A stretch of DNA of 34,044 bases from Dehalococcoidia bacterium. GTDB lineage: Bacteria > Chloroflexota > Dehalococcoidia > DSTF01 > JACRBR01. Positions 8,815 through 33,386 of the stretch are shown piece after piece. Every line of letters starts with the position of its first letter. Position 1 is the stretch's first letter. The stretch is taken from the NCBI GenBank assembly GCA_040902535.1, contig JBBDXD010000012.1, forward strand, positions 1 through 34,044. The letters run 5' to 3'. The translations under genes were made by a program, and so were the position numbers. Below the pieces are notes generated by a model. It had not been told where the DNA came from, made no database searches, and worked only from the letters and a program-made list of their open reading frames with translations.

Positions 8815-11800
8815 TCAGCGCCGGGCAGCCTGCAACTCATCCTCTGAAATGACGTGCCAGATCTGCACCGCCGGGTTTTCGTACGCAAGCTCCAGGCGGC
8901 CGCCGATGCCGTTCTGGAACTTCGCGAGCCCCGAGTCCTCGTAGTACGCCCGCTCGACGCTGCCGACGATCACCCATTCGACGTCGTATTTGTCGATCAG
9001 CTCTCGTGCGCGCGCCATGTTGGTCGTGGAGTAGAACTCCTTCACATCGGCCTGGCGCACGGCCACGACCTGTGCCGCGAGCCTGGCGCGTTGTTGCGTC
9101 TGGTGCCAATCCCATCCCGCGACCGTCGGCAGGCCCGTGTACATGGAGATGCGGCTGCCGAGCCGATAGAACGGCGTGACGGCTTCGATCGTGGTCGGTG
9201 AACCTTCGACGTGTTCGCGCAGCCAGTAGATCGCGTCGCGTTCGTACGACAGCTCGTGTTCCGCCGCTACGCCGGTCGCCTCGACCTGTTCCCTGTATAC
9301 CGCGTCGTCCATGTACGCCATGCCGTTGTTCGAGGTGCCGAGCGCCGGGTTGAAGCGTTCGTGGAAGCGCGCGCGCGAACCGACGTACGGGAACACCAGC
9401 GCGCAGACCACGAGCAGCACCGCGAACGATGCGAATGCGTAGCGCGGCACGCGCACCAGCGACGCGTCGATGCGCGAGGCGCGACGCAGGAAGGCTTCCT
9501 GCGGTCGCATGACGCCGAAGAGATACCACGCGCTGAACGCGCCGACGACGCCCCAGAGCATCCAGACGTGGAGGTAGAACTTGAACACGGTGTTCATGCG
9601 GCCGATATCGCCGTCGAGCGTGATCGTCTCGACGCCGCCGCTAAGGCCGAAGCCGAGCGCGGCCATCGCGTAGACGAACAGCAGGATCGGGGCGGTCGGC
9701 GTCGGGCTGCGCACTTCGCGCCACGCGACCAGTGCCACGGTGACGAGCCCCACGGCAGCCAGCGCGATGACACCCCAGCGTTGTACCGTCGCCGCGCCGA
9801 TGAGCAACGACGCGGCGACAAGCAGCGAGAGGATCACCGGGGCGGTTTCGACGGGCTGGCGCCTTCGCGCAGAGCCGAAGAAGATCGCCCGCACGGCGTT
9901 GTTGCGCGTGACGACGCGGTTGAGCGCGAACACGAGGAACCCGCTCATCAGGAACAGCAGCAGCCCGAAGTGACTCAGGTAGTCGCCCAGCGCGGACGTC
10001 TGCGTCGACTGCTCGAAGCCGGAGTAGAACATGTCGTAGTTCTTCGCAAACGGCGCGAAGAAGGCGAACGACAGCGCCGCCATGACCAGGCCCTTGAGCA
10101 GGCCGATCGAGAGCGTCTTGAGCGTGAACTCCCCGTCCTTCGCGCGCTCGCCGACGATCAATGCGGCGGCCGCGAGCAGCAGGAACGGCGGGTAGTCCCA
10201 GGAGTTGATCCAGCGCAGCGCGCCGACGACGAGTCCCAGCAACACGACCATCGCCCAACTCATCATCTCGCGGCTGCCCATGAACGAACGAAGGCCCGCG
10301 GATGCCCGCGATACCGGGTTGAGACGCGTGAAGTTCAACACGGCCGCCAGCGCGATGCCGGCGACCGTCATCGAAAACGGGATCGCCATCAAGTGCGCGT
10401 GCAGGTCGGCAAACAGGAACGTCCAGAACGGAAACTCCGTGATCGGCAGGACTTCGCTTGAGTCGCTCACGCGCACCGCGCGGCTGGGCTCCCACCAGTT
10501 GTAGCCGTACACGACCTGACGCACGGTCGCATCGCCGAAAATGATCTCCTTGAAGCCCCCCACGAGCGTCACGATGCCGCCGACCACGGGGATATCGCTG
10601 TGCCACGGGCTGATGCGCGTCATGTTGTTGTTGAGTTCGTCGACGGCGCGCAGGTTGCCGGAGAACAGCACCAGGAAAACGCCGCCGAGCCCCGCGAAGA
10701 TCGGACCGAGCGGATTGATCGGCAGGCCGCCGGGCCGCCGTCGCATGAGCCGCCGCGTCGCTTCGGCCAGGTTGTAGGTGACGGAGAACGTCGCGGCCGC
10801 CGAGAGCGCCCAGAACATCGGCACGATCAGGTTGTACGCCACCTCCGGCACGATGCCCGTAAGCTTCGTCACCGTCGCGCCGATGAACTGGCCGTAGTAG
10901 TAGTAGTTCAGGTAGCCGCCGGCGTTCCACGGGTCGATCGGCCCCTGCGTGAGGTCCGTCGTCTTGATGACGCCGATCAGGTACGTCAGGTCCATCGGCT
11001 TCTCGCCGCCCCGCGACGGATGCCACAGGTCGGGGTTCTGGATGCGTATCCAGTACGTCAGCGCGAAGATCACGAGGAAGAACGCCTCGGCGAAGACCAG
11101 GAAGCGCCAGCGCTCACGCACCCAGGCGATCAACGGCTCGCGCCATATGTACGCCGTTGCGGCGCCGACGGCGATCAGCACGCCGAGCGCGACGGCGATC
11201 TCGGCGCGCGTGTAATCGATGCCGGCGAAGGCCGCGGGCGCGTATGCCATGTATGCGAGCGCGAATACGCCGAGCGGCTTCGTAAGCAGAAATCCGCGAT
11301 CGGGGAGCGCGCGAAACAGCATGAACGCGAGCGGGACCAGCGCGAACGCCGCCAGTTCGATCGTAAGCACCCAGACGAGCAACGGGTGGTCGTTCGCGAA
11401 GCTGTCCGCGTCGAAGATGTCGCTCCACGTGCCGCCCGCCTTCTGTTCGGCTGCGACATCGGGCGTGAACTGCACCCCGTTTGTGCCGGCGTAGCCGGGC
11501 AGCAGCGAAAGGCCGGAGACGAAGGCGTCGGCGCCGAGCACCTCGCGCGCCCGCTGCGACGAGTAAACGCCGGTCTTCTCGTAGACGACGACCTTCGGGT
11601 GGTCGTAGACCGAGAACGACTCTTCCGCGCCCGTGTCATCGAACTCGATGCCGAAGACCTCGGGATATGAGGTGAATTCCTCGGCCTTCCGGAAACCGAG
11701 TTCGCCGGACTCCAGCGCCTCGTAGTAGCGCGTCGTGATTGGCCAGACGGCCGGCGCGCGCGTGATCGTGCCCGAAAGCCGCGCGCTGCTCAGAGCGATG

Positions 11801-13677
11801 TAATCGACCTGGTCGATGTTCGCGAGGAGCGCTTCTACCTTCTCGGGCGTGTCTGTCTCGTAGTTATTGAACGTGACGTGCTCGTACTCGCGGACCTCGA
11901 CGCCCGGCACGCCGTAGGGCACCTGGTCGTCCCAGTGCTCGTGCCCGATTGTCGAGCCCGCGGGCACGTTTTCGAACATCCAGCGCGACGCTTCGACGCG
12001 CGTCACGTCGCTGCGATAGATGTTGTAGAACGCGAAGCCCGCAAGCAGCGTCATGACAGCGACGATCGTCACGGCGGCGCGCGTGACGTATGGGAGCGCG
12101 GGCTTCGCCGGCTCGAGCCGCGCGCCAAGGCGTCCCAACGATCCGAACGGATCCTTCGAGACGCCCCACTCGGCCGTCTTGAAGAGCAGCGCCGCGGCGA
12201 ATACGGCGAGCACCGGGTAGAGCGGCAGGAAGTAGCGCATGTACAGCGAAAACTGCGCGCCCATGAAGATGAAGTAGCCGACGATCCACGCGAGCGGCAC
12301 GAGCCAGACGCCCGCGCGTCGCCGGATCGCGTACACCGCCGCGAAGGCGACGCCGAGCCACGCGACGATGCCGAGCGCCGGCCCCATGCCCCAGGCGATC
12401 ATCTGCTGCGCGGGCCAAACCCAGCCGGTGCGGCCGATCCACTGCACGTTCGGCGGGAATGCGGCGTCCCCGCTCAGCAGGTTCTGTTGGTCGACCTGGT
12501 CGCCGATCCAGTGCTGATTCATGATGTCCGGGTACACCGTGGGCATGCGCCACAACTGGCCCGTCCGCAACGAGAAGAAGTCGCCGAGATTCGGCGCATT
12601 GAACGCGTACGGCATCGCGATGCGGAACGCGATGAAGCCCGCCAGCAACGCCACGAGCGACCCGAGCACGATCGTCGCGACGGATCGGTCGAGCGCCGGG
12701 CCGTCCTGTTGCGGTTGGTAGGGCCGGCTGTCGCCCTTCCACCATCCCGCGATGAAGGGCTTGATGCCTGGCCACGCATACACGCCGATCGCGAGCACGA
12801 CGACGGGCAACAGCGAAACAGCCGTGATCTTGCACGCCGCGGCAAGACCGGCGCCGGCGCCGGCGATCGCGAAGTTGCGATAACCGCCGTCGAGGGCGCT
12901 GCGGATGGCGTAATACACCGTCAGCGTCGCGAAGAACGTCACGTACGGGTCGACGATGTAAAAGTGCGTGTTCTGTATCGGGAACGGCGCGACGGCGTAC
13001 AGGAACGACGCCAGCAGCCCGGTGTTCGTATTCATCAGCCGCCGGCCGATGAGGAAGATGAAGACGATCGTCCCCAGGTCGAACAGCCCGGCGAGCACGC
13101 GGCCGACGAGGTGCCCCTCGTAACCGCCATCGAAGATCAGCCGGCCGCCGTCCCGTTCGAGGTCAAAGCCGACGGCGGAGATGGCGCCGCGCACGACCTT
13201 CGCATGCCAGGGGCTCGTGTATACGGTCTCGCCGTCGCTGTTCGTGCGCTGGTCTTCGTCGAGCCATTCGCCGACGGTCTTGGTGATGAAGAGCGGGAGC
13301 GTGCCGTAGACGAACGTCGTCTGGCGCTCGCCGTTGGCGCGTTCGATGTTGTACGGGTTCAGCCCCGACGTTTCCGTATCGAAATAGTTCGCGGGGCTCG
13401 ATGGGAACGACGTGTCATTGGTGATCTGGGCGAGGAAACGCTCGTCGGGGTGCAGGTGGCCGCTGCTCGTGCCGGCGCCGGGCGAGTCCCAGTTGATGTG
13501 CGTGAAGCGAAGGAACGACGCGAGCGCAAGGATCGCCACCAGCGTGGCGATCGCCAGCACGCGTGCCCAATCGATCGATGCGGTGGCGATGCCGATCTGA
13601 GGGAGGAAGCGGGGAGACGCCTGCGCCGGCGCGGCGGACGACGAATCGTGGTGCAACGGCGAGGTCTGTTCGCTCAT
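8815..13677 (-). CDS. Giant membrane protein: GT-C glycosyltransferase fused to DUF2298 (YYY) domain
   Basis: A 1620-residue polytopic membrane protein. The N-terminal half (to about 750) looks like a PMT/ArnT-type (GT-C) glycosyltransferase: a first membrane segment at about 37-58, an extracytoplasmic acidic motif HPDER (about 76-80), many further helices, and a soluble segment with WMFENVPAGSTIGHEHWDD at about 570. The C-terminal half begins with further helices and has the Chlor_Arch_YYY hallmarks RGGEKPMDLTYL and NYYYYGQF (about 885-930). It ends with a soluble region (WLREHVEGSPTTIEAVTPFY, then VGSVERAYY). GT-C enzymes use polyprenyl-linked sugars on the outer face; the YYY family has no proven function. 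Stand-alone copies of each half are the usual form; this is one frame without internal stop. It converges with hicA (14-nt gap). Confidence 0.92.
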   Translation of the reverse strand: MSEQTSPLHHDSSSAAPAQASPRFLPQIGIATASIDWARVLAIATLVAILALASFLRFTHINWDSPGAGTSSGHLHPDERFLAQITNDTSFPSSPANYFDTETSGLNPYNIERANGERQTTFVYGTLPLFITKTVGEWLDEDQRTNSDGETVYTSPWHAKVVRGAISAVGFDLERDGGRLIFDGGYEGHLVGRVLAGLFDLGTIVFIFLIGRRLMNTNTGLLASFLYAVAPFPIQNTHFYIVDPYVTFFATLTVYYAIRSALDGGYRNFAIAGAGAGLAAACKITAVSLLPVVVLAIGVYAWPGIKPFIAGWWKGDSRPYQPQQDGPALDRSVATIVLGSLVALLAGFIAFRIAMPYAFNAPNLGDFFSLRTGQLWRMPTVYPDIMNQHWIGDQVDQQNLLSGDAAFPPNVQWIGRTGWVWPAQQMIAWGMGPALGIVAWLGVAFAAVYAIRRRAGVWLVPLAWIVGYFIFMGAQFSLYMRYFLPLYPVLAVFAAALLFKTAEWGVSKDPFGSLGRLGARLEPAKPALPYVTRAAVTIVAVMTLLAGFAFYNIYRSDVTRVEASRWMFENVPAGSTIGHEHWDDQVPYGVPGVEVREYEHVTFNNYETDTPEKVEALLANIDQVDYIALSSARLSGTITRAPAVWPITTRYYEALESGELGFRKAEEFTSYPEVFGIEFDDTGAEESFSVYDHPKVVVYEKTGVYSSQRAREVLGADAFVSGLSLLPGYAGTNGVQFTPDVAAEQKAGGTWSDIFDADSFANDHPLLVWVLTIELAAFALVPLAFMLFRALPDRGFLLTKPLGVFALAYMAYAPAAFAGIDYTRAEIAVALGVLIAVGAATAYIWREPLIAWVRERWRFLVFAEAFFLVIFALTYWIRIQNPDLWHPSRGGEKPMDLTYLIGVIKTTDLTQGPIDPWNAGGYLNYYYYGQFIGATVTKLTGIVPEVAYNLIVPMFWALSAAATFSVTYNLAEATRRLMRRRPGGLPINPLGPIFAGLGGVFLVLFSGNLRAVDELNNNMTRISPWHSDIPVVGGIVTLVGGFKEIIFGDATVRQVVYGYNWWEPSRAVRVSDSSEVLPITEFPFWTFLFADLHAHLMAIPFSMTVAGIALAAVLNFTRLNPVSRASAGLRSFMGSREMMSWAMVVLLGLVVGALRWINSWDYPPFLLLAAAALIVGERAKDGEFTLKTLSIGLLKGLVMAALSFAFFAPFAKNYDMFYSGFEQSTQTSALGDYLSHFGLLLFLMSGFLVFALNRVVTRNNAVRAIFFGSARRRQPVETAPVILSLLVAASLLIGAATVQRWGVIALAAVGLVTVALVAWREVRSPTPTAPILLFVYAMAALGFGLSGGVETITLDGDIGRMNTVFKFYLHVWMLWGVVGAFSAWYLFGVMRPQEAFLRRASRIDASLVRVPRYAFASFAVLLVVCALVFPYVGSRARFHERFNPALGTSNNGMAYMDDAVYREQVEATGVAAEHELSYERDAIYWLREHVEGSPTTIEAVTPFYRLGSRISMYTGLPTVAGWDWHQTQQRARLAAQVVAVRQADVKEFYSTTNMARARELIDKYDVEWVIVGSVERAYYEDSGLAKFQNGIGGRLELAYENPAVQIWHVISEDELQAARR

Positions 13678-24013: not shown

Positions 24014-24044
24014 TATAATCGCAGCCATGAGGGCTGCGCGATGA
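24014..24044 (+). promoter_or_regulatory. Promoter and mini-ORF before the STAND regulator
   Basis: Consensus TATAAT at 24014-24019 has a poor -35 (CTTTCT). A start near 24026 would place ATG AGG GCT GCG CGA TGA (24027-24044) at the very 5' end. This five-codon frame ends on a TGA overlapping the regulator's ATG, and contains its SD (GAGGG). Confidence 0.45.
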
Positions 24045-27000
24045 ATCCCCGGCCGGGCGGCGTTTCCGTCGCGACGTCGAAGTTCGCCGTGCCGCGCCGC
24101 CGGCCCGATATCGTGCGGCGCTCGCGCCTCAACGCCTTCATCGATGCGGCGGTCGGCGCCAAAGGCATCCTGGTGGCGGCGCCGGCGGGCTACGGCAAGA
24201 CGACGCTGATCACCGACTGGCTAGAGACCTCCGACCTCAGCATCGTCTGGCTGTCGCTCGATACGTGGGACGCCGATCTGCCTGCGTTCACCGGCGCGCT
24301 TGCGGAGGCGATCCGCCTGGGCCTCGGCATCGACGTCGCGCTCGGCGACGAGCGCTTCTGGCAGCCCCGCACCATCGGCACCGTCATCGTCAACGGCATC
24401 GCCGCTCACGACGACTATGTCGTGCTCGTGCTCGACGACGTGCACACCGTCGATGCGTCGGAAGACATCATGGCAACGCTCGGCTTCATCCTCGAACGGG
24501 CGCCGGAGAACCTGCACCTCGTCATGACGTCGCGCACGCGCCCGCCGATCCCGTCGTTGTCGCGGCTGATCGCCCGCCGCGATGTCGCCACAATCGGCGT
24601 TGCAGACCTGGCGTTCACGCCGCGCGAGATCCGCGAGTTGCTCGGCACGCTCGGTCGCGACGTGTCCGAAGACGAAGCCGATGCGTTGTACGAGCGCACC
24701 GAGGGATGGGCGGCCGCGCTGATCCTCGGCGCCGGCGGCGACCGGCGCCCGGGGCGGACGAACGTCGAAGGAGAGGAAGCGACGGGTGGCGCTGGCAGCA
24801 TCGCGGGGCCAAACGTCGGCTTGTCGCTCGCTGACTACGCGCAGGGAGAAGCGCTGGAGGGCGTCCCCGACGACCTGCGCGCGTTCCTGCGCAAAATCTC
24901 GCTGCTGCCCGTATGGACGCCGGCGCTCTGCAACGATGTCACCGGCCGCAGCGACAGCGAACGCTTGCTGCGCGACGCCGCGTCGCGCGTGCTGTTCGTC
25001 TCGCAGCACGCCGACGATCCGCCGATGTACCGCTGCCACCAGCTCATGCGGTCGCTGCTGATGCAGCAGTTTCGCCGTGAGGACCCCGATGGCTACGCGA
25101 CGGCCGGCCGTGCAGCCGCGGAGACGTTGTCGAACTTCGGGTTGCTGAACGAGGCCGTCGACCTGCTGTTTGAACTCGAAGCATGGGACGAGGCCGCGAA
25201 GATGCTGGAGGACGTCGCGCCCAGGCTCATCCAGCAGGGACAGGCGCGTGGCCTCGGCGAATGGATCGACCGCCTGCCGCCGGGCTCGCAGTCGTCCCGA
25301 CCGCACCTGCAGTTGTGGCGCTCGCGCGCCGCACTCAAGCTCAAGGAGTTCGACGAAGCGCTGCGCATCATCGAGGATGCGATCCGGACGCTCCGCCCCG
25401 CGAACGAAACGCGGCGGCTGGTCCAGGCGCTCTTCGTGCGCGGCGAAGCGCAGCGCCTCAAAGGCTACTACGACGAGTCGCTCGCCGCGTTCCGCGAGGC
25501 ACGCGCCCTCATCGAAACGAGCGACGAAGGCGATGTCCAACTCGCCGGTGACGCGCTGCGAAATATAGGCGTCGCGCATACGATCACCGGCGACCTCGAC
25601 GCAGCGATCGGTGAGCTGGAAGAAGCGCGTAAGCTGTTCGAGCAGGCGGGCGACCTGCAGGGCATCGGCAACACGTGCGCTTCGCTGGCGCAGTGCTACA
25701 GCATGCGCGGCCAGCCGATGCTCGCGCTCGACGCGCTACAGCGCGCGCAATCCGCGTTCGAGCGCGCGGGCAACACGTTTGACCTCTGCCTGACGCTCAA
25801 CAACACCGGCATGGTCTATTACACGCTCGGCGAGTACGAACAGGCGGTGCAGGTGTACGAGCGCGGCCTGCGCGTCGTGCGCGGCACGGGCAACGTGGCG
25901 TACGAGGCGTTCATGACGGCGGGCATGGCGGAGACGTATCGCGCCATGGGCCGGTTCGATGAGAGCCTGGCCGCCTACAACGCGGCGCAACCGCTCGTCG
26001 ATGGATTGCAGATCGCGTACCTGGCGCAAGAGTTGAGCGAGGGTATGGCGTTGACGCGGCTGGGGCTCGGCCAGGGCGAAGACGCCGTGCAGATGCTGAA
26101 GCGCATCGCGCCCGGCGCATCGGACCCGCCGGCGCGCCTCGCGGCGCACGCGGTGACGGAAGCGCAGGTGCAACTCGAACGCGGCGATGCGGGAAGCGCG
26201 CTGAAATCCATCGACTTCGCGTGGCGTCACTTCGAATCGGTCGATGACCGGCACGATATGGCGATCGCGGCGTTCTTGCGCGCTCGCGCGCTGTTCGACA
26301 GCCATCAACCGCGGAAGGCGATGGCCGAATTGGGGCGCGTCGCCCGGCTCTGCGAGCGCCTCGGCTACAAGAAGTTTCTTCGGCCCCACGTCTCGCGGGC
26401 GCACGAGATGGTCGAATACGCGCTGGTGCGCCACGTCGAGGACGCGTTGCTTGCGGACCTCGTCGCGCCGCAAGCAACGCCCCGCCCGGACGACGAGCGG
26501 GCAGGGCGCCATGCCCCTGCTTCCGACATGTTGCCCGCTGTCCGCGCCTTCGCCTTCGGCCGCGGCAGCGTGCTCGTAGGCGAACGTCCGGTGTCCGACT
26601 TGGAGTGGCGGAGCGAGAAGAGCAAGGAGATGTTTTTCTTCCTGCTCACGAAGCAGGACTCCGTCGGCAAGGAGGAGATGTTCGCGGCCCTCTGGCCCGA
26701 CCTGCCCGAGTCCAAGTGCAACAGCAACTTCCACTCCAGCCTCTATCGCCTCCGGCGAGCGCTGTTCCACGAGTGCGTCATTCGCGAGCCCGACGGGAGC
26801 TACGGCCTGAACCAGCGCGGCGTCTTCGAATCCGACGTCTCCGGCTTCAACAGGGCGATGCTGGCAGCCGACGTCGCGAAGGACGACGACGAAAGAATGG
26901 CGCGGCTCGAAGAAGCGGTCGCTCTCTACAAGGGGCCGTTTATGAGCGCGACCTACAGCGACTGGGTGGAGCCCGTGCGGCGCGAGCTGGAGGAACGCTA

Positions 27001-27265
27001 TATCGAGGCGCTGAACGAGCTCGGCGCGCGAAAGCTCAAGGACGGCGCGTTCGAGGAAGGGCTGGTGCTGTTCAAGTCGCTTGAGTCCGTCGACCCGTAT
27101 AGCGAGGCGGCGACGTTCGGCGTCATGCGGTGCCATCTCGGGCTCAACGACGGTCCGGCGGCCGCCCGCCAGTATCGCCGCTTCCGGCAGCTCCTCCGCG
27201 ACGAACTTGAAGAAGAGCCGTCGGAACGGCTGCAGCAGCTCTACAAGGAGGCCTCGACTCGCTAG
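24041..27265 (+). CDS. MalT-like STAND NTPase regulator with TPRs and C-terminal winged helix plus BTAD
   Basis: A 1074-residue transcription regulator. The N-terminal STAND NTPase domain has Walker A APAGYGKTT (47-55), Walker B VVLVLDDVH (about 126-134), a MTSRTRPP sensor and the LYERTEGWAAALIL motif of the MalT/LuxR group. Then a TPR-rich middle (about 360-790; repeats such as GDALRNIGVAHTITGDLDAA and LNNTGMVYYTLGEYEQAV). At about 830-930 comes a winged helix (EWRSEKSKEMFFFLLTKQD, EEMFAALWPD), and 935-1074 is a BTAD, as in SARP activators. MalT proteins end in a LuxR helix-turn-helix instead; here DNA binding sits in the winged helix. It probably switches on ligand and ATP binding. SD GAGGG. 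It converges with the next gene across 7 nt. Confidence 0.93.
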   Translation: MNPRPGGVSVATSKFAVPRRRPDIVRRSRLNAFIDAAVGAKGILVAAPAGYGKTTLITDWLETSDLSIVWLSLDTWDADLPAFTGALAEAIRLGLGIDVALGDERFWQPRTIGTVIVNGIAAHDDYVVLVLDDVHTVDASEDIMATLGFILERAPENLHLVMTSRTRPPIPSLSRLIARRDVATIGVADLAFTPREIRELLGTLGRDVSEDEADALYERTEGWAAALILGAGGDRRPGRTNVEGEEATGGAGSIAGPNVGLSLADYAQGEALEGVPDDLRAFLRKISLLPVWTPALCNDVTGRSDSERLLRDAASRVLFVSQHADDPPMYRCHQLMRSLLMQQFRREDPDGYATAGRAAAETLSNFGLLNEAVDLLFELEAWDEAAKMLEDVAPRLIQQGQARGLGEWIDRLPPGSQSSRPHLQLWRSRAALKLKEFDEALRIIEDAIRTLRPANETRRLVQALFVRGEAQRLKGYYDESLAAFREARALIETSDEGDVQLAGDALRNIGVAHTITGDLDAAIGELEEARKLFEQAGDLQGIGNTCASLAQCYSMRGQPMLALDALQRAQSAFERAGNTFDLCLTLNNTGMVYYTLGEYEQAVQVYERGLRVVRGTGNVAYEAFMTAGMAETYRAMGRFDESLAAYNAAQPLVDGLQIAYLAQELSEGMALTRLGLGQGEDAVQMLKRIAPGASDPPARLAAHAVTEAQVQLERGDAGSALKSIDFAWRHFESVDDRHDMAIAAFLRARALFDSHQPRKAMAELGRVARLCERLGYKKFLRPHVSRAHEMVEYALVRHVEDALLADLVAPQATPRPDDERAGRHAPASDMLPAVRAFAFGRGSVLVGERPVSDLEWRSEKSKEMFFFLLTKQDSVGKEEMFAALWPDLPESKCNSNFHSSLYRLRRALFHECVIREPDGSYGLNQRGVFESDVSGFNRAMLAADVAKDDDERMARLEEAVALYKGPFMSATYSDWVEPVRRELEERYIEALNELGARKLKDGAFEEGLVLFKSLESVDPYSEAATFGVMRCHLGLNDGPAAARQYRRFRQLLRDELEEEPSERLQQLYKEASTR

Positions 27266-29286: not shown

Positions 29287-30399
29287 ATGCGTACCGATAC
29301 TCCGGACGTGTACACGGCCGAACACCCTCGAAGGTCAGAGCGGCTTCCCCGCATCGTGCTTGCCGGCGCCTACGTCGATGTGCTGGGCGCGCGGAGCGAT
29401 GCCCTGTCGCGCGAACTGGCGCAGGTCGCCCATGTGCGCCACGTGGCGGGGCGCTCGATGCTTTCGGTCTACCGTGTGGCTGCCCGGGCGCTCTCGCGCG
29501 ACGGCTTCGAAGCCGTGCATCTCCTCGATGCGCGACTGGCGCCCGTCGGCGCGATGCTCCGGGCGCGACAAGGGGTCCCGGTGAGTGCCACGGTAAACCC
29601 GGCTCGCGTCGCGGGCCGCGGCATTGGCTCGCACCTCGCGCGGCGTGCGCTGGACCGCCTGGACCAGGGATTTGCCAGTGACCACGGGACGGTGAGGTTC
29701 CTGCGCGAGCACGCCCGACGTTTGCCCGTCGTGCTGACGCCGGCGGGATCGGCGCCGCCGCAAGAACCGGCGCCGCGCAAGCTCTCGTCGATCAGCCGTC
29801 TGCTGCGCGACGTCGTGCCCGGACGGCCCGTCGTAGGCGTGCCGTGGACGGCGGATATCGATTACATGCGCTGGCACCGGGATGCCGTCGCGCCGCTGCT
29901 CACGGGTAACCCGCTCTGCCTGCTGCTCGGGGCGCCGAGTAGCCGCCAGGCGCGCCTCGTCTTCGGCGCAAATGGGGTGCAGGCCGACTACCGCGTGCAC
30001 ACGGGCGCGCTCGATGCGGAGACGCTGGCCGCCGCGGCGCGCTGCGTCGACGTCTTCGTCGTCGCCGGCGCGCCCGCGCGTCCGCAGATCGAGCCGGACA
30101 TGCTGATGGCCATGGCGGCGAGCCGAGTGCCTCTCGTCGTGGGCGGCGGCCTGCGATCGAGCATCCTGCGGCACGAAGCGAACGCGTTCATCGCCACCGC
30201 GGGCGATCCGCTGAGCCTCGTCTCTACGTTGAACCAGGTCCTGGCGCTGCCGGCGATTCAGCGGCACTGCCTCGGCGAGCAGTTCGCGGATTACACGCTC
30301 CTGCAGCACACCTGGGAGCACGCCGCTTCGGTCTACGCCGAGCGCTTCGCGGTGATGGTTGGGCGGCCGCCGATCCCCGCCGACCTCCGCGCCGCCTGA
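29287..30399 (+). CDS. GT-B-like (GT4-type) protein, probably degenerate
   Basis: A 370-residue protein whose C-terminal third follows the GT4 pattern. LVVGGGLRSSILRHEANAF, then GDPLSLVSTLNQVLALPAIQRHCLGEQFADYT and a C-terminal TWEHAASVYAERF correspond to the usual donor-sugar domain. In active GT4 enzymes the donor motif has two glutamates seven residues apart (E-x7-E). Here QIEPDMLMAMAASRVP keeps only the first. The N-terminal acceptor domain is short. It may be a non-catalytic paralogue or bind a nucleotide sugar. It precedes the GH3-winged-helix gene by about 125 nt in the same direction; a functional link is speculative. Confidence 0.6.
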   Translation: MRTDTPDVYTAEHPRRSERLPRIVLAGAYVDVLGARSDALSRELAQVAHVRHVAGRSMLSVYRVAARALSRDGFEAVHLLDARLAPVGAMLRARQGVPVSATVNPARVAGRGIGSHLARRALDRLDQGFASDHGTVRFLREHARRLPVVLTPAGSAPPQEPAPRKLSSISRLLRDVVPGRPVVGVPWTADIDYMRWHRDAVAPLLTGNPLCLLLGAPSSRQARLVFGANGVQADYRVHTGALDAETLAAAARCVDVFVVAGAPARPQIEPDMLMAMAASRVPLVVGGGLRSSILRHEANAFIATAGDPLSLVSTLNQVLALPAIQRHCLGEQFADYTLLQHTWEHAASVYAERFAVMVGRPPIPADLRAA

Positions 30400-30492: not shown

Positions 30493-30524
30493 CGTGTCCG
30501 GGCGCAGGGATGGAGTTGCCAGGG

Positions 30525-33386
30525 ATGAGGGGTACCGCTCGAGCCGCTTCGCTCCGAACGGCGTGCGTCGCTGTGCTCCTGCTTGCCGCGCTCTTCGCCC
30601 CGCTTTCGGCAGGTCGCCCGTCGGCGGCACGAGCCGGCGAGCCTGACCCGGCGTTCCTCGATCGCGTCATCGCGTCGCTGACTATCGACGAGCGTGTCGG
30701 CCAGCTCGTCATGGTCAACTTCGTCGGCGATGACGTCTCATCTGAATCCGAGGTCGCGTCGCTGGTCGAGGACTTCAAAGTGGGGTCCGTCCTCGTCACC
30801 GCGAGCAACGGCAACGTCGTGAACCGCGACGACACGGCGGCGCAACTTGCCGATCTGACGAACGGCTTGCAGCAGCGGGCGCACGAAGCCAACGCCCGCC
30901 TCGACGCCGGGACGGAGTACTTCGTCCCGCTCTTCATCGCCACCGACAACGAGGGCGATCTGTTTCCGTTCACGAATGTGACGCACGACTTCACGTCGAT
31001 CCCGAACAACATGACGATCGGCGCGACGTGGAAGAAGGAGCACGCGCAGACAACCGGCGAGATCGTCGGACGGGAGCTGTCCGCCGCCGGCATCAACATG
31101 CTTCTGGGGCCCGTCGTCGACGTGCTCGACAATCCGCGCGCCGGCGGCCGCGGCGACATCGGCATTCGGTCGTTCGGCGGCAATGCGACGTGGGTGGGCA
31201 TGCTCGGACGCGCGTATGTCCGTGGCATCCACGATGGCAGCGCAGGGCGCATGATCGCCGTCGCGAAGCATTTCCCCGGCCACGGCGGCAGCGACCGCTC
31301 GACGGATAACGAAGTGCCAACGGTCATCAAGTCGCTGCCTCAGTTGCGCGCGTCGGAGCTTGCGCCGTTCGCGGAGTTGGTGCGCATCGACGACGACGAT
31401 CCGGAGGGCGCCGTCGACGCGATGATGGTGTCGCACATCCGTTATCGCAATTTCCTCGAGGGCGGCGGCGGATCGTTCACGCCGCCGATCTCGCTGGACC
31501 GCGCCGCCTTCAACGGATTCATGGGGCTGCCGGAGTTCGCGTCGTGGCGTGAGGACCACCTGGTGATGGCCGATTCGCTCGGCGTGCCCGCCGTCAAGCA
31601 ATGGTACGCGCGCGAGGAAGGGCAGCCCGCGTTTCCGAGCCGCACGGTCGTCCGCGACGCGCTGCTGGCGGGCAACGACCTGCTGCCGCTCATCGAGTTC
31701 TATGTTGACTCCGCGAACCGCGGCTGGTCGGAATACCAACTGCCGGTGATCCAGGACTCGATCATCTTCATGCGGGAACAGTACGCATCGGACCCGGAGT
31801 TTCGCCGTCGCGCCGATGATGCGCTCCGCCACGTGATCGCGGCGAAGATGCGGCTGTACCCCAGCCTGACGCTCGAAAGCGTGCTCGTCGATCCGGTGAA
31901 CGCAACGGCCGTCGCCGGCGGCGGCGAAGAAGCGATGCAGGCACTGGCGGTTGACGCGTTGACGCTGATGCATCCATCGTCGGTCGAGGAACTGCAGGCG
32001 CGGCTGCCACGCGGCCCCGTCGCGCCGGACAAGGTGCTCATCGTCGAGTGCTGGAGCGACTGCTACCCGTACCGCGTGATGACGCAGTTGGCGCTCCAGG
32101 AGCAACTCCTGGCGATGTACGGCGCCGCGGGCAACGGACGCTTGCGCGACGAAGACGTCGGCACGATCAGTTTCGGCGACCTGGACGCATGGCTTGCCGC
32201 CCCCGACGATCCCGCCAACGCTTCGACGAGCACCGCGGTCGGTGACGCCCAATGGATCATTTTCGCGATCTCCGAGTACGTTCCGGATGCACGCCCGGCA
32301 TCGGCCGCCGTGCGCCGCTTCCTGGACGACACACCGGTCGACCTGCGGAACAAGTACCTGATCGGGCTGGCGTTCAACGCGCCGTACTACCTCGACTCGA
32401 CGGAGATCAGCAAGCTGTCCGCCTACTTTGCGGTGTACAGCAAAACGGCTCCGTCAATCGAGGCGGCGTTCAAAGCGCTGTTCGGCGATGCGATCCCCGG
32501 CGGCCAGCCGCCGGTCAACGTGAGCGGCATCTTCTACGATGTCGGCGACGCGACACAGCCCGACGCCGCGCAGCAGATCAACATTGCCGTCTTCGGCTAC
32601 GACGCATCCGCAGTGCCGGACGAAGGCGCGCTCGGTCTGGTCGCCGGGCCGATCGTCGATCGCAACGGCAATCCCGTCATCGATGGCACGACGGTGTCGT
32701 TCACGCTCGCGAAGGACGATGCCGTGCCGCTGTCAGCGAGCGGACGCACGGTCGATGGTTTCGCGGGCGCGCAACTGGCGCTCGATGGTGGCGGCAGTTA
32801 TGTCGCATCGGCGAGTGTTGCGGGCATCGTCACGTCGCCGCTCGCCATCACCGTCGTCGGTGATGGCGGCTCCGGCCCGGATCTCGATCCTTCGCCTATC
32901 GATGATGCGGGCGGCGACGGCATCAGCCCACTCGTCCTCGCGCTCGCCATCGGCGTGCCCTCGGGCGCAGCGATCGTCGCCGCGGGCGGCGCTGCCGGCG
33001 TGGTGCTCATGCGACGCCGCCGTCGCGAGGGCGCACCTGATGTCCCGTCGCCGGCCCTTGCGGCCGAACCCGTAGCAGAGGCGCCGCGCGCCGTGCTGCG
33101 CGTCGAAGGCGATACGCGTCGCGTCTACGTGAAGGGCGCCGAAGCGAAACCGCCGCTGTCCAACGAACAATTCCGGTTGTTGCACTACCTCTACGAACGC
33201 TCGGGCAAGGTGATCTCGCGCGAGGAACTCATCGCGCACGTCTGGCCCGACGATCACGCGGAAGGCGTGTCCGAGGAGGCGCTGGATGCGCTCGTGCGAC
33301 GCGTGCGGGAGCGCATCGCGCAGGCTGGCGGCGAGCGCACGTACATCGTGACGCTGCGTGGGCAGGGATTCCGGCTGGAGATATGA
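30525..33386 (+). CDS. GH3 glycosidase domain fused through a membrane helix to an OmpR-type winged helix
   Basis: A 953-residue protein from the ATG at 30525 (GGAG at SD distance; 30510 is an alternative). A signal peptide ends near residue 40. A glycoside hydrolase family 3 domain follows (about 45-430): VGQLVMVNF, FIATDNEGD, KHFPGHGGSD (from K248) and VMADSL with the candidate nucleophile Asp350. The NagZ-type D-S-H acid/base motif after KHFPGHG is replaced by S-T-D. After an unassigned region and a beta-sandwich-like segment (about 690-790) comes one hydrophobic helix (about 800-828) ending in RRRRR, so the C-terminus is cytoplasmic. The last 90 residues are an OmpR/PhoB winged helix (EQFRLLHYLYERSGKVISRE...RTYIVTLRGQGFRLE). 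It appears to sense a glycan outside and regulate DNA inside. Confidence 0.93.
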   Translation: MRGTARAASLRTACVAVLLLAALFAPLSAGRPSAARAGEPDPAFLDRVIASLTIDERVGQLVMVNFVGDDVSSESEVASLVEDFKVGSVLVTASNGNVVNRDDTAAQLADLTNGLQQRAHEANARLDAGTEYFVPLFIATDNEGDLFPFTNVTHDFTSIPNNMTIGATWKKEHAQTTGEIVGRELSAAGINMLLGPVVDVLDNPRAGGRGDIGIRSFGGNATWVGMLGRAYVRGIHDGSAGRMIAVAKHFPGHGGSDRSTDNEVPTVIKSLPQLRASELAPFAELVRIDDDDPEGAVDAMMVSHIRYRNFLEGGGGSFTPPISLDRAAFNGFMGLPEFASWREDHLVMADSLGVPAVKQWYAREEGQPAFPSRTVVRDALLAGNDLLPLIEFYVDSANRGWSEYQLPVIQDSIIFMREQYASDPEFRRRADDALRHVIAAKMRLYPSLTLESVLVDPVNATAVAGGGEEAMQALAVDALTLMHPSSVEELQARLPRGPVAPDKVLIVECWSDCYPYRVMTQLALQEQLLAMYGAAGNGRLRDEDVGTISFGDLDAWLAAPDDPANASTSTAVGDAQWIIFAISEYVPDARPASAAVRRFLDDTPVDLRNKYLIGLAFNAPYYLDSTEISKLSAYFAVYSKTAPSIEAAFKALFGDAIPGGQPPVNVSGIFYDVGDATQPDAAQQINIAVFGYDASAVPDEGALGLVAGPIVDRNGNPVIDGTTVSFTLAKDDAVPLSASGRTVDGFAGAQLALDGGGSYVASASVAGIVTSPLAITVVGDGGSGPDLDPSPIDDAGGDGISPLVLALAIGVPSGAAIVAAGGAAGVVLMRRRRREGAPDVPSPALAAEPVAEAPRAVLRVEGDTRRVYVKGAEAKPPLSNEQFRLLHYLYERSGKVISREELIAHVWPDDHAEGVSEEALDALVRRVRERIAQAGGERTYIVTLRGQGFRLEI

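Follow-up and report, generated by a model that had tools for sequence, protein, structure and literature searches.

A GH3-type ectodomain joined to an OmpR/PhoB-type winged helix in a single membrane protein of Dehalococcoidia: a candidate one-component receptor related to a kinase and FHA-factor gene set

The fusion gene and its surroundings

The window analysed here is an entire contig of 34,044 bases (C12), part of a 3.18-Mb draft genome of a Dehalococcoidia bacterium. Towards its end lies a single open frame of 958 codons, from an ATG at 30510 to a stop at 33386. The first-pass annotation of this DNA had used a second ATG at 30525, which shifts residue numbering by five; its Asp350 is Asp355 when numbered from ATG 30510, as is done throughout. 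Two Pfam domains were matched far over cut-off at opposite ends of the frame, Glyco_hydro_3 (PF00933, residues 58-336, 2.5e-39) and Trans_reg_C (PF00486, residues 882-956, 3.4e-18). The features of the gene, with the evidence for each, are the following.

30510..33386, +, GH3-winged-helix fusion protein, 958 aa (open frame, Pfam, intact orthologues in four other genomes)
30510..30638, +, putative signal peptide region, residues 1-43 (hydrophobic stretch, then an Ala-x-Ala-type end)
30639..31904, +, GH3 barrel, residues 44-465 (Pfam, AF2 ectodomain model, best PDB matches)
31266..31286, +, KHFPGHG motif, residues 253-259 (sequence, conservation table)
31299..31307, +, S264-T265-D266, at the site of the NagZ D-S-H acid/base triplet (conservation table)
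31572..31574, +, Asp355, the expected GH3 nucleophile, retained (alignment)
31905..32579, +, alpha/beta second domain of two-domain GH3 enzymes, residues 466-690 (AF2 model, B. subtilis NagZ alignment)
32580..32861, +, Ig-like beta sandwich, residues 691-784 (model strands, weak Big_1 match)
32925..33023, +, predicted single membrane helix, residues ~806-838, running into an Arg cluster, positive-inside (hydropathy from sequence)
33024..33095, +, flexible Ala/Pro-rich cytoplasmic tether, residues 839-862 (low pLDDT)
33096..33383, +, OmpR/PhoB-type winged helix, residues 863-958 (Pfam 882-956, family identity, tree placement)

The signal peptide region is hydrophobic across all orthologues and poorly conserved in sequence. 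The Ig-like segment forms a beta sandwich in the model, and its Pfam Big_1 match is weak (E 0.34). The membrane helix, about 20-30 hydrophobic residues, was read from the sequence at ~806-838 and is followed by RRRRR; it is also a helix in the full-length model, at 818-838, where confidence is low, and the Arg cluster is found in all orthologues. By Pfam, the fusion protein has no receiver domain before the winged helix, no histidine kinase domain and no FHA domain, the last being present in the split relatives described below. The parts that had been proposed for this frame, namely a signal peptide, a GH3 domain, a beta sandwich, one membrane helix with Arg-rich residues and a C-terminal winged helix, are all present, as are the KHFPGHG motif and the S-T-D at the triplet; the segment of about 466-690, which had been left without a name, is the GH3 alpha/beta second domain.

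Gene order around the fusion shows little conservation across genomes, and no partner is common to all of them. Directly upstream (29287-30399, +) is a gene for a 370-aa protein without a Pfam match, a homologue of which is also found upstream in genome G007. Further upstream (24041-27265, +) is a gene for a 1074-aa MalT-like TPR protein with a C-terminal BTAD, and its homologue adjoins the fusion gene in G004. A 1620-aa membrane protein with DUF2298 and PMT_2 glycosyltransferase-type domains is encoded at 8815-13677 (-), and a tRNA cluster follows the fusion gene. No PADLOC match to a defence system was found. The very end of the contig (33989-34044) consists of a perfect 7-base tandem repeat, GACCGCT, in 8 copies, and the assembly probably broke inside a longer array of this repeat.

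Conservation of the fusion

Searches of related genomes recovered full-length, single-frame orthologues in G007 (65% identity), G006 (63%), G004 (62%) and G009 (40%), the last from another family of the same order. Copies cut by contig ends are present in G005 and G130. The copy in G116 (L154 / L040), a 57%-complete genome, carries three in-frame stops, which may reflect decay or sequencing errors. In all, the fusion was found in 8 of the 393 genomes of the class sample, and the five intact fusions known all fall within one class. Of all domains, the winged helix has the highest conservation within the fusion family (76-82% identity), and the stretch of membrane helix and tether ranks among the most variable parts (30-34%). 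Most nucleotide changes in the winged helix are silent, with dN of 0.12-0.15 versus dS of 0.68-1.06.

The first-pass annotation had pointed to an assembly join near 32900-33100, and to a homologue survey in which the winged helix is never fused to GH3, as results that would speak against its reading. The intact orthologues in four other genomes answer the first point, and the 8 of 393 class genomes answer the second. That a GH3 gene was joined to the end of a response regulator by assembly or gene prediction is hardly credible. Such joins do happen in draft metagenome-built genomes; however, an identical junction and frame occur in five assemblies from at least four genera and the winged helix is under constraint, and on these two grounds the artefact was rejected. 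The fusion protein is real and conserved.

The ectodomain and its altered active site

An AF2 model of the ectodomain, built from 37 sequences, reached a pLDDT of 90.2 and a pTM of 0.93; the full-length model (10 rows) was weak, with a pLDDT of 65.7, in particular over the membrane helix and the winged helix. The best PDB relatives of the ectodomain are two-domain GH3 beta-N-acetylglucosaminidases with Z scores of 43-47 (4zm6, 47.1; Paenibacillus 6k5j, 45.3; B. subtilis NagZ 3bmx/4gyj, 42.8), and the same enzymes made up the top rows of a Foldseek search. The fusion shares the two-domain GH3 fold of B. subtilis NagZ (YbbD) and the Paenibacillus GH3 N-acetylglucosaminidase, with an rmsd of 2.4-2.8 A over 511-550 residues, and the alignment with B. 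subtilis NagZ spans both domains of that enzyme. It differs from these two enzymes in the added Ig domain, membrane helix and winged helix, and in the active site: the barrel, the second alpha/beta domain and the nucleophile Asp are there, but the Asp-x-His dyad is missing.

This difference lies in the loop after KHFPGHG, which reads D-S-H in the 13 other GH3 rows and S/G/W-T/V-D/E in the five intact fusions, none of which has the D-x-H dyad. Most family members have Asp or Glu in place of the NagZ His, and D-S-H was found in none of the split-family loops listed in the conservation table. All five intact fusions have Asp at the nucleophile position (Asp355) and retain the pocket residues D146, R220, K253, H254 and H309. 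Among the split relatives, many no longer have D146, R220 or the Lys-His pair. Because the Asp-His dyad is absent family-wide and the sugar-pocket residues are kept in the fusion branch, these comparisons suggest that the ectodomain of the fusion is a ligand-binding near-enzyme. Loss of enzyme activity is likely, although an acid/base role could still fall to the Asp or Glu that stands where NagZ has His. The earlier proposal that the changed GH3 site is better suited to binding than to canonical cleavage gains support from the loss of D-x-H in the family and its retention in the outgroup. Mur ligases are encoded in all six fusion genomes tested and are absent from two small genomes of the same class; a peptidoglycan-derived ligand is therefore possible for the fusions.

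Split relatives with a Ser/Thr kinase and an FHA factor

The same ectodomain, without the winged helix, was found in 46 of 400 sampled Chloroflexota genomes. These lie outside the window's own family, and the named records of the group are mostly Anaerolineae. In this split form the GH3 protein ends in about three membrane helices, and its gene clusters with two recurrent neighbours, one for a protein identified by Pfam as a Ser/Thr protein kinase and one for a protein of roughly 220 aa in which Pfam finds an FHA domain followed by Trans_reg_C. This FHA-winged-helix factor is present in all 46 ectodomain genomes, and at similar strength it occurs without the ectodomain in only 6 genomes of the phylum sample. 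At 25 loci in 24 genomes it is adjacent to the GH3 gene, always downstream on the same strand across a gap of 1.5-3 kb, which holds the kinase in the loci with enough sequence. In 27 of 30 loci the kinase and FHA genes are neighbours, including loci whose GH3 gene lies elsewhere. The kinase has a single membrane helix at its C-terminal end, in most cases followed by 0-7 residues, and so has almost no ectodomain. The residues by which FHA domains bind pThr (Gly-Arg, Ser-Arg-x-His, Lys-Asn-Gly) are visible in the 27 matched sequences of the FHA factor.

Loci with the three-gene set in Anaerolineae include L160 (G583), L161, L162, L045-L049, L158-L159, L166 and L168, the last in a genome (G506) with two GH3-membrane genes that each have their own FHA factor nearby. 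We consider the three-gene set of Anaerolineae a candidate for an undescribed signalling pathway in its own right. The kinase/FHA intergenic regions contain a recurring TATATTATAAACG block that resembles overlapping divergent promoters. Across L169-L198 these regions show a recurring CTATATTATAAACGTCTTT block together with a TTTCGGCGTG element, and the two are probably overlapping divergent promoters. A search of the kinase/FHA intergenic regions gave no clear operator, and by eye the intergenic block had no match upstream of the fusion genes. In the class to which the fusion belongs, a few other genomes carry standalone FHA-winged-helix genes. At one locus of this class (L223, 1883-3511, genome G191) the FHA-winged-helix gene is flanked by genes for a Ser/Thr kinase and a PP2C phosphatase, and the three make up a full phospho-switch module.

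Origin of the fused winged helix

The fused winged helix is 47-52% identical to the FHA factor; its identity to most of the other winged helices that these genomes encode is 28-39%. In the trees the fusions form one clade (100/99). The fusions and FHA factors stand apart from the response regulators of the same genomes (100/100), and the fusions and GH3-linked FHA factors stand apart from the other FHA factors of the same class (100/98). An AU test did not reject one clade of GH3-linked factors (p 0.30); the fusions may lie either inside or beside them. In the tree of the ectodomain, one fusion clade was neither supported nor rejected (AU p 0.32), and G009 formed a long branch. An origin from the genome's own response regulators was rejected on the score gap and the tree. 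Judged from these sequence comparisons, the fused winged helix belongs to the FHA-factor subfamily and not to the two-component regulators.

No close copy of the split-set kinase was found in the eight fusion genomes, where the best other kinases are 28-36% identical, and a search of G000 and G004 with the FHA factor matched only the fusions themselves. On the best reading, the fusion protein is a phospho-relay of three proteins that has been reduced to one receptor. In such an event the DNA-binding domain of an FHA-winged-helix factor would have been fused to the GH3 ectodomain, replacing the membrane bundle, the FHA domain would have been lost, and the partner kinase was apparently lost too. 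The idea of a one-polypeptide sensor in the first-pass annotation stands in this light, but the probable descent from a GH3 / Ser-Thr kinase / FHA-winged-helix gene set could not be read from that DNA by itself.

Comparison with known systems

Transmembrane transcription regulators are defined by a DNA-binding domain and at least one membrane helix in one protein (PMC10269533). With its winged helix and predicted membrane helix, the fusion is one of these by definition. Like the ToxR/CadC type, it would combine an extracytoplasmic sensor, one membrane helix and a cytoplasmic OmpR-type winged helix in one polypeptide. DNA binding comes first in the ToxR family (PMC5936718), the reverse of the order in the fusion, where the sensor is N-terminal, DNA binding is C-terminal and a signal peptide is present; the fusion differs further in its GH3-fold sensor and in a winged helix that comes from FHA factors. 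It had been claimed that known tethered regulators have the opposite order, and this is correct for the ToxR family (PMC5936718) but too broad, as hybrid transmembrane regulators are known in Bacteroidota and Chloroflexota (PMC10269533). The HTCS type of Bacteroides, like the fusion in its predicted topology, has its sensor outside and DNA binding inside on one polypeptide, but is built with histidine-kinase and receiver domains and without GH3. The hybrid regulators of Bacteroides carry DNA binding at the C-terminus.

The first-pass annotation also knew of no described family with a GH3 enzyme as its sensor; a glycoside-hydrolase sensor has a precedent in RsgI6 of Clostridium thermocellum, whose GH10 domain has very low activity and serves as an extracellular polysaccharide sensor (PMC4711584). 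RsgI6 and, by its predicted topology, the fusion both place a glycoside-hydrolase-type domain outside the cell on a single-pass protein; however, RsgI6 is an anti-sigma factor with a cytoplasmic N-terminus, does not bind DNA, and uses GH10 rather than GH3. For the split relatives the closest parallel is EmbR/PknH of Mycobacterium tuberculosis, the pair in which control of an OmpR-type factor with an FHA domain by a kinase has been studied (PMC4601284). Both pair a Ser/Thr kinase with an FHA-containing OmpR-type transcription factor, although EmbR is arranged as winged helix-BTA-FHA and the Chloroflexota factor as FHA-winged helix. PknH has its own ectodomain, unlike the split-set kinase, and the fusion has neither FHA domain nor kinase. 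In the open-licence literature we found no description of a GH3-winged-helix receptor or an FHA/winged-helix system in Chloroflexi, nor of a GH3/kinase/FHA-factor set.

Proposed mechanism and alternative explanations

We think it probable that the window protein is a membrane-tethered one-component receptor, with the GH3 ectodomain outside and the winged helix inside, derived by fusion from an FHA-winged-helix factor. By its predicted topology the GH3-type ectodomain would face outwards, and the old NagZ-like pocket, lacking the acid/base dyad, would hold a ligand, for which a wall or environmental glycan with amino sugars is the likeliest candidate. The signal would pass via the one membrane helix to the cytoplasmic winged helix on its flexible tether, which would then activate or repress genes. 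Switching by dimerisation of the ToxR type, by reorientation or by proteolytic release would all be compatible with this layout. On the broader proposal we are evenly divided: in an Anaerolineae-led Chloroflexota pathway, a catalytically degenerate GH3 protein would sense wall or environmental glycans and pass the signal to the tail-anchored kinase and on to the FHA factor, and the window protein would be this pathway collapsed into a phosphorylation-free form. In the split pathway the GH3 membrane bundle would control the Ser/Thr kinase, which is itself almost without a sensor part.

Several other readings were weighed against the receptor. The protein could be mainly a wall-anchored glycosidase, its winged helix a passive or auto-regulatory tail with little part in signalling, and its fold, close to active beta-N-acetylglucosaminidases, the retained Asp355 and sugar-pocket residues, and the Asp or Glu that has replaced the His and could act as an acid/base speak for this reading. 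We regard this as unlikely, given that the winged helix, at 76-82% within the family, is the most conserved domain of all and that the acid/base dyad is lost family-wide; moreover, the split relatives drop more pocket residues yet keep the gene, and they co-occur with the kinase and the FHA factor. Equally improbable is that the fused form is ancestral and that Anaerolineae split it and gained the FHA domain. The ectodomain tree gives no order of the two forms, and simple one-clade alternatives were rejected by neither tree test, but the fusions form one derived-looking clade, and distant standalone FHA-winged-helix proteins fall outside the clade of fusions and GH3-linked factors. Because these distant proteins lie outside, the FHA domain appears to be the older state for this winged helix, and because the outer standalone factors have it, its loss in the fusion is the simplest reading.

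A variant of the receptor itself invokes regulated proteolysis, in which the ligand would expose a cut site, a site-2-type protease would cut the helix and the winged helix would diffuse to DNA. The single membrane helix, the Arg stop and the long flexible tether suit this variant, and the cutting of RsgI by RseP in the membrane, in a glycan-sensing system, is described in PMC12203970. The view taken of membrane-tethered regulators in PMC10269533 is nevertheless that they work in place and are not released, and we put the variant forward tentatively. The membrane-tethered receptor, by whichever mode of switching, is the reading that we carry forward.

Biological implications

Such a receptor would be an uncommon example, in nature, of a relay pathway condensed into a single protein. 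With both states alive in one phylum and a recognition domain that is conserved, it would offer a natural test of how a multi-protein phospho-relay becomes a one-component receptor. The finding provides a possible sensor for Ser/Thr kinases without an ectodomain, and a candidate circuit for sensing the wall or glycans in a phylum for which genetic tools are few. As a single chain, the putative glycan receptor of the window may be amenable to study in laboratory strains.
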